Shown in pieces: positions 47,088 through 50,790 of a stretch of DNA of 64,000 nucleotides; positions within the stretch are counted from its first letter, which is position 1; each line of letters starts with the position of its first letter. The notes beneath the pieces are model-generated. The model saw only the letters and a list, made by a program, of their open reading frames with translations. It made no database searches and had not been told where the DNA came from. The translations under genes and the position numbers were made by a program. The stretch is taken from NCBI GenBank assembly GCA_030612725.1, contig JAUWNJ010000003.1, positions 1 to 64,000 of the forward strand, read 5' to 3'. The DNA is from Planctomycetales bacterium (GTDB taxonomy: Bacteria; Planctomycetota; Phycisphaerae; SM23-33).

Positions 47088-48248
47088 ATGAACGGTTCGC
47101 CGACAATTGACTGCGACTTTCCGGGCGGGAACATCCTCGTCGAGAGAATAGAGGCAGACACCGCCTACATCCGGCAGGACCTCCGCGACACGGACGGCGA
47201 CTGGTTCTACTGGTGCTTCCGCGTTCGTGGGGCTGCGGCGGGGCGGATGCGGTTTCAGTTCACCGGAAGCGACGTGATAGGCGTCCTCGGCCCGGCAGTC
47301 AGCACCGACGGCGGGACGACGTGGGCCTGGCTTGGCTGCGAGACGGTCGAGAACAACGGCTTTGCGTACGCCTTTGCCGCCGAGGCCGACGATGTCCGCT
47401 TCTGCGTCGCCATGCCGTACCTGGAAGCGAACCTGCGAGAGTTTCTGGATAAGCACCGCGACAACCCGCACCTGGACGCGGGCGTACTGTGCCGAAGCCG
47501 GAAGGGCCGGGAAGTTGAACTGCTCCGCCTGGGCAGGATCGACGGCGGCTGCGACATCCGCGTGCTGCTTACCTGCCGGCACCATTGCTGTGAGATGATG
47601 GCCGACTGGGCCTTGGAAGGCATCATGGGAACCGTTCTTGCCGCCGGCGACGACGGTGAGTGGTTCGGCGAGCACGTCGAGTTCCTCGTGGTTCCGTTTG
47701 TCGATAAGGACGGCGTCGAGGACGGCGACCAGGGCAAGAACCGTCTGCCGCGCGACCATAACCGCGACTACGAGGGCGATAGTATCTACCCTGAGACGGG
47801 CGCACTGCGGGAGTTGGTTCCCGCATGGTCGGCCGGCCTGCTGCGGTTCGCGCTGGACATGCACTGCCCATATATTCGCGGCGAGGGACACGAGGAGATA
47901 CATTTCGTCGGGACGGCGAATCGGGAGAACTGGCGTCGCGTCGTGCGATTTTCGGAAATCCTTGAGGATGTGCAGGTCGGCCTGTCCCGAGCGAAGTCGA
48001 GGGGCCCGCTGGTCTTCAAGGCCGAGAACAATCTCCCGTTCGGCCAGGGGTGGAACAAGCCGGACACTTTCAGCAAGGGCGTGAGTTTCAACGGCTGGTC
48101 GGCTGGGCTGCCGGGTCTGCGGTTTGCTTCGAGCCTCGAGATTCCCTACGCCTCCGCCGGAGGCAGGGCGGTAACATCCGAAACCGCTAAATTGCTGGGC
48201 CACGACCTCGCCGGAGCCATCCGACGCTTTCTGCAACAGGAATGCTGA
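47088..48248 (+). CDS. M14 family zinc carboxypeptidase-like protein
   Basis: LLTCRHHCCEMMADWALEGIM, VPFVDKDGVEDGDQGKNRLPRDHNRDY, ALDMHCPYIRGEGHEEIHFVG. Confidence 0.85.
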   Translation: MNGSPTIDCDFPGGNILVERIEADTAYIRQDLRDTDGDWFYWCFRVRGAAAGRMRFQFTGSDVIGVLGPAVSTDGGTTWAWLGCETVENNGFAYAFAAEADDVRFCVAMPYLEANLREFLDKHRDNPHLDAGVLCRSRKGREVELLRLGRIDGGCDIRVLLTCRHHCCEMMADWALEGIMGTVLAAGDDGEWFGEHVEFLVVPFVDKDGVEDGDQGKNRLPRDHNRDYEGDSIYPETGALRELVPAWSAGLLRFALDMHCPYIRGEGHEEIHFVGTANRENWRRVVRFSEILEDVQVGLSRAKSRGPLVFKAENNLPFGQGWNKPDTFSKGVSFNGWSAGLPGLRFASSLEIPYASAGGRAVTSETAKLLGHDLAGAIRRFLQQEC

Positions 48249-48334
48249 AGGTCGGAAAGGCCCTGCGGGAATTTGAAAAATCAGGTCAAAAGCCCGTCCC
48301 CTTGAAAAAGGTCAAGAAGGAACTGGGGAATTAA
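48242..48334 (+). CDS. Small ORF, 30 aa, possibly fragment
   Basis: MLKVGKALREFEKSGQKPVPLKKVKKELGN*, ATG overlaps M14 stop. Confidence 0.35.
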   Translation: MLKVGKALREFEKSGQKPVPLKKVKKELGN

Positions 48335-49184
48335 CGCGGTACGTCTCCGTATTTGCTGTGTCTGCTTGAAAACTGTATTGGAATCCGGTTATGGGTAATA
48401 ATGACTGCTTGATCTTGGCACATGGAAGATTTGCCGGTTTCCTCGGAGCTTCCCGATGTTGAGATCTCAGGGAAGTAATCCACTGCGTGAGAGTATCACA
48501 GTCAAACAGAGCTCGCTTGTAGTGGCGGTGCTGAAGGTCAACCAACTCCTCTAGTTCGAGGCGTTCGACATGATGGAGTATGTATTCAGTCAATCTCGGA
48601 GCTATGGCAAAATTTAGTTTTCTGGCTGTCATGAGTGCAGTAAGAACGCACAATTTCGGGAAAGGATTGTCTTCGAAATTTATATCGATTGTTTTTTTTA
48701 AAACTGCCTCAAAGAAGCCGTTTGAATAAATTTTTCGGGACTTGCCCGGCTTGGGTATCAATTCAGCCACTACTGCTTGAATATCAAGAAATGTCGTTTT
48801 GGGAAGATCGGAGAAGGCTTTTCCGGGAAAATGGTTCTCCCGAAATGCCCAGGTATCCCCTAACGCCCATATGTCGAAATCCCAACGGGAAATGCAAACC
48901 TGGAAGCCGCCAAAACGAGTTCTTTTCTCCAAGTATTCGCTAAGGTACTCTTCCAGTTCCGGCGTCATTTTTGAGACAACAATGTCCAAATCTCGCGGAT
49001 TCTTTCCGGGCCCGTGGATTATCAGATCTCTTAGTGCTCCGCCAAACAAAAAGGCCGTCCATCCCTTTTGGCGGATTTTATCGAAGATAGGCCTCAGCGG
49101 TTGGCGAATACCTGTTTGAGATGCGACGAACTTACTAACCTGTTTTCGAAGCGTGCTTCTCAACCTGTCTATTTCATTACCCAT
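48312..49184 (-). CDS. CCA-adding/polyA polymerase head-domain-like nucleotidyltransferase
   Basis: GWTAFLFGGALRDLIIHGPGKNPRDLDIVV (GG..RD..DxDIV); overlaps dGTPase gene by 8 nt. Confidence 0.8.
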   Translation of the reverse strand: MGNEIDRLRSTLRKQVSKFVASQTGIRQPLRPIFDKIRQKGWTAFLFGGALRDLIIHGPGKNPRDLDIVVSKMTPELEEYLSEYLEKRTRFGGFQVCISRWDFDIWALGDTWAFRENHFPGKAFSDLPKTTFLDIQAVVAELIPKPGKSRKIYSNGFFEAVLKKTIDINFEDNPFPKLCVLTALMTARKLNFAIAPRLTEYILHHVERLELEELVDLQHRHYKRALFDCDTLTQWITSLRSQHREAPRKPANLPCAKIKQSLLPITGFQYSFQADTANTETYRVNSPVPS

Positions 49185-50622
49185 TCGTTAGCCTCTTGTG
49201 GAGGTTGACAGCAAAAGTATCTGTCATGCCACAGACGTAATCCGTTACCAGTTGCATACGGCAGTATCTCTTGGGCAAATCGGTCTTTTCTAGTGCGTGC
49301 TTAAAGACTTTTTGGTAGTTGTCAGACGTCAGATCGTACGCTTTTTGAGCAAACTTCTCGGAATTGGAAAGGTTTTTCTTACCATTTCCACGAAAGTCAT
49401 AACCTTCCCAGTATATGTCGAGAAGATCCTGAATTACCTTCCGCCCCATTAATTCCAGATTCAATGTCTCATCAGAGCAGTACACTCGTCCCAAATTAAT
49501 CTTCCGGCAGGCTTTAACAAGAGGCCATGCTGTGGAATCCTCTACCAGTTCTCCGTGATAATCCCCCTCCATAATCTCCTCATAATTATCCATGAATGCC
49601 TTAGACGAAGCCGTAACGATTTCCCTAATTGCCAGCACTCGAAAATACCGAACCAGGGTTTTGTCCTTGGCACGACCAGAGAACTGAATTTCTTTCTCTT
49701 TTTCTTCTACATGTTCTTCCACATCCTCGAGGTATTTCCGGATGGTAGTGTTATCATCACTGCTGGCTAGTAATTCGTCCTTGAGTAATTTCCAATCCAA
49801 TATGCCCTTTGTTACTCCATCTTCGAGATCGACCGTGTTATAAACACAATCGTCCGCAGCTTCCACCAAGAAGGTGATGGGATTCCTAGCCTTGCCTGTT
49901 CCTGTCTCTGTGCGCAATTTTTCTATCAACGAATTCTCAGAGGCAAAGTAACCAACCTTGGCTTTCTCATGGAAACCGTCGTCCCCTTCATTGGAAGCAG
50001 CAACATATTTGCATGCCGCAGAAAGTGTGCCGCAAGTTAGATTGAGTCCGTGGAAGTCCGCCAGTATTTGAAGCTTCGTTATAAGTCGAATCGTTTGAGC
50101 ATTGCCCTCAAACCGTAAAAAATCCTGGACATATTGACTGGCCTTGTTTCGTCTCTCCGAAGCGTCATATAACTCGCTAAAGAAGTTGGCATCCTTTCCT
50201 TCTTTTTCCTTTTTTTGAAACCATTCGCGGATTGCTATTTCCCCGGAGTGCCCAAAGGGTGGATTTCCAAGATCGTGAAGCAGGCCACACGTGGCAGCAA
50301 TCGTCTCTATTTGCCTGCTTTTTAGGTTGTCAATATACCCCTGCTCTCTCATCTCACAGCACACGTCTTTCGCAAGGCCGCGAGCAGCATGGGAAACCTC
50401 CAGGGAATGAGTTAGCCGAGTCCTGACTGAGTCGTTGGGATCCAAGGGAAACACTTGTGTTTTGTCCTGGAGACGTCGAAAAGGCGTAGAGTACACGATA
50501 CGATCGAAATCCCTCTCAAACTCATCGCGTTTGTCTCCAGGCACCCTCTCTGACTGGCTCGGACCACCAACAAGTTCCCTTGCCCGCTCTATACTCAAAA
50601 GCTTTTGCCAGTCCATTGCCAC
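49177..50622 (-). CDS. dgt: Deoxyguanosinetriphosphate triphosphohydrolase (dGTPase, HD superfamily)
   Basis: FRRLQDKTQVFPL, RTRLTHSLEVSHAARGLA, CGLLHDLGNPPFGHSGE, VEAADDCVYNTVDLEDGV. Confidence 0.93.
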   Translation of the reverse strand: MAMDWQKLLSIERARELVGGPSQSERVPGDKRDEFERDFDRIVYSTPFRRLQDKTQVFPLDPNDSVRTRLTHSLEVSHAARGLAKDVCCEMREQGYIDNLKSRQIETIAATCGLLHDLGNPPFGHSGEIAIREWFQKKEKEGKDANFFSELYDASERRNKASQYVQDFLRFEGNAQTIRLITKLQILADFHGLNLTCGTLSAACKYVAASNEGDDGFHEKAKVGYFASENSLIEKLRTETGTGKARNPITFLVEAADDCVYNTVDLEDGVTKGILDWKLLKDELLASSDDNTTIRKYLEDVEEHVEEKEKEIQFSGRAKDKTLVRYFRVLAIREIVTASSKAFMDNYEEIMEGDYHGELVEDSTAWPLVKACRKINLGRVYCSDETLNLELMGRKVIQDLLDIYWEGYDFRGNGKKNLSNSEKFAQKAYDLTSDNYQKVFKHALEKTDLPKRYCRMQLVTDYVCGMTDTFAVNLHKRLTNG

Positions 50623-50790
50623 GCTTACCGCTCCAAGGGAGAAAGAAAAAATCTAATTTTGGGACCTCTCCCCGAATAGGGACAAATGCACACTCTATAT
50701 CACAGCCTCCTCAACAGATAACCGCCACTTGTGTCCGAAGTCAAGGAGAAAGAAATGCGGACTCTAAAAGTGCCACACACACATTCCGGC

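Follow-up and report, generated by a model that had tools for sequence, protein, structure and literature searches.

A pair of overlapping genes, encoding an HD-domain dGTPase and a minimal Pol-β-fold nucleotidyltransferase, lies between topA and an M14-like gene in a 64,000-nucleotide stretch of Planctomycetales DNA (contig JAUWNJ010000003.1; "the window" refers to this whole stretch). It is very probably a Clover-type anti-phage system, in which the nucleotidyltransferase, CloB, would inhibit the dGTPase, CloA, via a p3diT-like dinucleotide until dTTP rises. Clover, a two-gene anti-phage system formed from the CloA dGTPase and the CloB nucleotidyltransferase, was described in 2025 (PMC12265719; PDB 9P8S-9P8V). 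Its CloA is a dTTP-activated dGTPase inhibited by p3diT from CloB, toxicity follows the loss of CloB activity, not its presence, and the system blocks T5-like phages (PMC12265719). The dTTP activation, p3diT synthesis and inhibition, and T5 restriction have been demonstrated solely with the Clover systems of Salmonella and E. coli; a distant Xanthomonas CloB is also reported to make p3diT (PMC12265719). The taxa named by the authors are Proteobacteria, Bacillus, Clostridia and Myxococcia (PMC12265719), and Clover in the window lineage apparently falls outside these groups. An earlier, sequence-only reading had suggested that the architecture might be novel; it already has a name, and among the papers searched the features of Clover came together only in that report.

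Organisation of the gene pair

The pair and its surroundings comprise the following features, where G001, G002 and G003 denote the three congeners of the host:

47088-48248, plus strand: M14-like gene, converging on the pair from the opposite flank of the slot
48298-48332, minus strand: 35-nt sequence with the cloB stop codon, bounding the module on its far side; also kept in G001
48312-49184, minus strand: cloB-like gene, minimal Pol-β-fold nucleotidyltransferase, 290 aa, ATG start; active site D65, D67, D104
49177-49184, minus strand: 8-nt cloA/cloB overlap, from the ORF coordinates
49177-50622, minus strand: cloA-like gene, HD-domain dGTPase, 481 aa; best PDB match CloA 9P8S-V; six of six catalytic residues
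50791-53433, minus strand: topA, the slot flank; the same in G002 and G003, and also in G001

The two ORFs, their overlap and their motifs were verified as first read: THSLEV, LLHDLGNPPFGHSGE and EAADDCVYNTVDLEDG are all found in the dGTPase, and FGGALRDL, PRDLDIVV and FDIW in the nucleotidyltransferase. The cloA-like frame starts with a GTG at 50622, an alternative ATG lying two codons on at 50616, and the 8-nt overlap of cloA with cloB is suggestive of translational coupling. The pair is also AT-richer than its flanks, as had been noted, both in GC (46.5% for cloA and 45.8% for cloB, against 58.3% for topA and 63.7% for M14) and in GC3 (49% and 46%, against 69% and 79%). The ORF pair is not a product of chance, because both frames are kept in two other congeners with a dN/dS of 0.16-0.27; dS across the three species is below that of topA, and cloA and cloB are under purifying selection in all three.

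The dGTPase and its ligand pockets

In Pfam the dGTPase comprises HD and HD_assoc domains, and the NCBIfam model dGTP_triPase matches it well over cut-off. The best matches in a PDB sequence search were the four CloA chains 9P8S-V (labelled "DNTP triphosphohydrolase") at ~1e-80, headed by 9P8T at 6e-81, while E. coli Dgt (7e-55) and the single-gene anti-phage SpdGTPase 9P8W (4e-29) were weaker. The structure library holds 9P8S-V as CloA, alone or with dGTP, dTTP or p3diT, and CloA chains were the top fold matches of the single-chain prediction (mean pLDDT 75.5), made from a shallow alignment that included CloA relatives.

Residue numbering from PMC12265719 maps on the PDB chain, apart from the contact Q377, which reads E in the chain and was left out. 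All six metal and catalytic residues are kept in the window CloA (H69, H117, D118, D242, H126 and E129), the HD motif and the HE dyad included. Six of the ten p3diT contacts are retained (R29, R34, D37, R38, N181 and R314), including every charged one, and four are altered (T25P, F41Y, N75H and Q311R). For dTTP, six of nine contacts are kept (R47, D61, Q172, S418, N420 and T449); the changes are K256T, Y452F and A444Y, A444 being a main-chain contact. N175 is a further contact that is altered in the window. Position 452 is also F in Phaeobacter.

The host's other dGTPase, used as a control, has five or six of the ten p3diT contact residues, a count that varies with the alignment; taken alone, the p3diT pocket therefore proves little, and its residues were dropped as sole proof of Clover. 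Among the enzymes sampled, only the window genus and CloB-paired enzymes carried the full set D61-Q172-S418-N420. The latter are the proteobacterial Clover CloAs, L006 and L016, with L008 deviating by an N at 172; Dgt and the remaining dGTPases each lack part of the set. Read from the aligned residues, the p3diT pocket is partly ancestral, and the four-residue set is the more telling of the two. A CloB-less dGTPase of Listeria monocytogenes (L062:3001-4398), in a housekeeping setting beside rpsL, shares most residues of the CloA dTTP pocket and lacks only Q172 from this set; judging by that pocket, control by dTTP may predate the role in defence.

The CloA tree was built without the host's second dGTPase, which produced long branches when included. 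CloB-paired enzymes cluster in it far better than in shuffles, with a long separate branch for the window genus; a single clade of CloB-paired enzymes that includes Listeria was neither shown nor rejected (p 0.10).

These departures raise the prospect of a Clover-like system with changed chemistry, in which CloB would make another inhibitory dinucleotide, CloA would sense another nucleotide, or both. The altered T25, N75, Q311, K256 and N175 contacts point that way, as do the long separate CloA branch and a CloB that is equally diverged, at ~25% identity to proteobacterial CloB. However, the contacts to the ligand bases (D37 for the T2 base; D61 and T449 for dTTP) are kept together with all charged p3diT contacts, position 311 is still Q in the congener G002, and the distant Xanthomonas CloB is reported to make p3diT (PMC12265719). 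Such a change of ligands is therefore unlikely, and Clover with p3diT-like and dTTP control is the reading preferred here.

The nucleotidyltransferase and CCA-adding enzymes

Public profile libraries say little of the nucleotidyltransferase: its PolyA_pol head (PF01743) is sub-threshold in Pfam at 18.9 bits against a cut-off of 23, its PADLOC search gave no match, and no PADLOC model matches CloB. The window CloB is missed or under-scored by the public HMM libraries tried, so such pairs are probably under-counted.

When GTDB representatives were scanned with Salmonella CloA, ten CloA loci of Proteobacteria and two ordinary Dgt emerged; a short nucleotidyltransferase frame lies 3' of CloA in nine of the ten, usually overlapping (L021 stops at a contig edge, and the frames of L027 and L030 are shortened). 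In hhalign, the window protein aligned over 241 columns (E 7e-28) with six proteobacterial CloBs, five from these loci and one from Phaeobacter; the alignment with Firmicutes nucleotidyltransferases spanned 189 columns (3e-22), whereas CCA enzymes matched over a 70-column head only (1e-8). Identity to proteobacterial CloB is only 23-27%; D65, D67 and D104 (the DxD and third Asp) are invariant in alignments with CloB-paired nucleotidyltransferases, and the tree splits the CloB clade from the CCA clade with 100/100 support. Judged by its closest kin, this protein would be the regulator that makes an inhibitor of the dGTPase, not a toxin or a tRNA enzyme.

The structure prediction for the window protein (pLDDT 77.7) ends in 34 disordered residues and has the general shape of a CCA enzyme, with a head-neck fold, as is expected within a shared superfamily. 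This likeness of the head to PolyA_pol and CCA enzymes, in both sequence and fold, along with the stability of the pair at one site in three species, would also suit a housekeeping pair, namely a dGTPase balancing dNTPs beside a tRNA CCA-adding or poly(A) enzyme. Yet the host genome encodes elsewhere (C31) a complete CCA enzyme in which both RRDFTIN and EDYLRMLR occur, and RRDFxxN and EDxxRxxR were found neither in the window protein nor in any CloB examined; a second dGTPase is also present (C20:87622-88629), and most of the family and phylum are without the pair. A housekeeping pair is accordingly very improbable: motifs, tree and the separate CCA gene rule out a housekeeping CCA enzyme, and sporadic distribution and the second dGTPase rule out a core dGTPase.

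Adjacency and distribution

The order CloA then CloB recurs in Proteobacteria and on plasmids of Bacillus and Phaeobacter, and a viral contig carries the dGTPase-nucleotidyltransferase pair too. On plasmids, a dGTPase match directly precedes a nucleotidyltransferase match in seven of eight cases (Bacillus, Phaeobacter), the pair being visible in all four plasmid regions opened (L006, L007, L008 and L010), and the Bacillus copies have restriction, AAA ATPase and abortive-infection-like genes close by. An annotated phage collection gave no CloB-like match.

Among the 41 nearest genomes, the host, two of its three congeners and one further member of the family have the pair, a fifth match being a 414-aa CCA enzyme; a search of 399 genomes across the phylum added no other clear short CloB. 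CloB-profile matches across the phylum (E 1e-4 to 1e-9) are nearly all frames of ~300-830 aa, mostly of CCA-enzyme size, and since nearly all such frames read carry CCA motifs, they were not counted as CloB. In a member of the same family (G004, L019:1-1481), a cloA reduced to its 3' part precedes an intact cloB in a different neighbourhood, a copy that is decayed or mis-assembled.

The sequence-only reading suggested that the pair might be an effector and its modulator rather than housekeeping dNTP metabolism, and this is well supported by the homology to Clover, by an adjacency that spans phyla and is not limited to close relatives, by the separate genuine CCA-adding enzyme, and by a dGTPase that is sporadic and accompanied by a second one.

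On Kovacikia minuta plasmid pA (L009:5863-8648), a CloB-like nucleotidyltransferase that has no adjacent dGTPase abuts a patatin-like phospholipase gene also encoding an inactive-HKD domain; a CloB-type signal may here control another effector. On Geminocystis plasmid pGM01 (L068:804-4326), a dGTPase is divergent from an adjoining annotated anti-phage dCTP deaminase, both being nucleotide-depleting.

PADLOC labels the window protein simply "dGTPase", as would befit a Shewanella-type anti-phage dGTPase that acts as a single gene, the nucleotidyltransferase downstream being unrelated. But Clover CloAs receive the identical label, the anti-phage model NF041026 reaches 187.6 bits where its cut-off is 400, CloA matches far better than SpdGTPase 9P8W, and the nucleotidyltransferase partner is kept across phyla, making this reading extremely improbable. 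Pol-β-fold nucleotidyltransferases include both toxins and antitoxins. A toxin-antitoxin module, whose nucleotidyltransferase would modify tRNA or protein with the dGTPase as accessory, would fit small overlapping genes but has a negligible chance of being correct, as the nucleotidyltransferase groups with CloB, whose loss, not presence, is toxic (PMC12265719), and the dGTPase catalytic residues are intact.

The topA/M14 slot

The arrangement topA-cloA-cloB-M14 recurs in G003 exactly as in the window, and likewise in G002 until the contig ends inside M14. The immediate neighbours, topA and M14, are not defence genes. In the congener G001, whose genome is 77% complete, cloAB was not found; the region corresponding to window 48250-50790 (L085:2105-4080) carries instead, after topA, a TIGR04255 gene together with two that are similar to PDC-M32A and PDC-M32B, which are candidates in PADLOC. 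The order in G001 runs topA, the TIGR04255/PDC-M32 genes, the 35-nt boundary sequence, a second copy of the topA end (86 nt, 84% identical), further genes and M14. All four genomes have the 35-nt sequence just once.

The slot at the topA 3' end looks like a site of defence-module exchange, and is likely a defence hotspot, a small and concrete one in which a sister species holds a different candidate module. That G001 once had Clover and then lost it is a guess. Among wider family members no topA lies near the M14 homologues, so an empty-site comparison is uninformative. At 48298-48353 in the window, the last cloB codons sit in sequence that G001 keeps without the remaining cloB; the insertion boundary may have supplied the cloB C-terminus, or what G001 keeps may be left over from cloB.

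Proposed mechanism and significance

By analogy with Clover, CloB would make a thymidine dinucleotide (p3diT or a closely similar molecule) that binds the CloA dimer interface and holds CloA inactive in the uninfected cell. Remodelling of the nucleotide pool by phage would raise dTTP, filling the neighbouring activating site and overcoming inhibition, and the active CloA would then hydrolyse dGTP and starve phage DNA replication. We infer both that p3diT and dTTP are the ligands and that the window pair defends its own host. Clover, a system that watches dTTP and is braked by a nucleotide of its own making, would thereby be extended to a divergent homologue, whose altered contact residues offer a natural test of CloA ligand specificity.

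Comparison with known systems

Bacterial CCA-adding enzymes and poly(A) polymerases (class II nucleotidyltransferases) share with the window nucleotidyltransferase the GG-RD and DxD head and the predicted head-neck fold, but the window protein is shorter, has neither RRDFxxN nor EDxxRxxR, and belongs to a separate clade. E. coli Dgt (4X9E) has the same fold and catalytic residues as the window dGTPase; unlike CloA, it is without R34, D37, D61, Q172 and N420 of the pockets, and has no CloB. SpdGTPase (9P8W, NF041026) likewise belongs to the HD dGTPase superfamily and has the catalytic residues, but is without a CloB partner, matches at 4e-29, and is represented by a model under whose cut-off the window protein falls.

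Clover differs from the window pair in several respects: identity is ~35% for CloA and 23-27% for CloB, T25, N75, Q311, K256 and N175 are altered in the window along with Y452F, the window CloB has its own predicted disordered tail, and the pair lies between topA and M14, outside a large defence island. The CloA assembly of Clover is octameric; the structure prediction for the window CloA covered one chain. In common with Clover, the window pair has a cloB that comes after cloA and overlaps or nearly abuts it, homology along the full length of each protein, all catalytic residues, and most of the charged p3diT and dTTP contacts.
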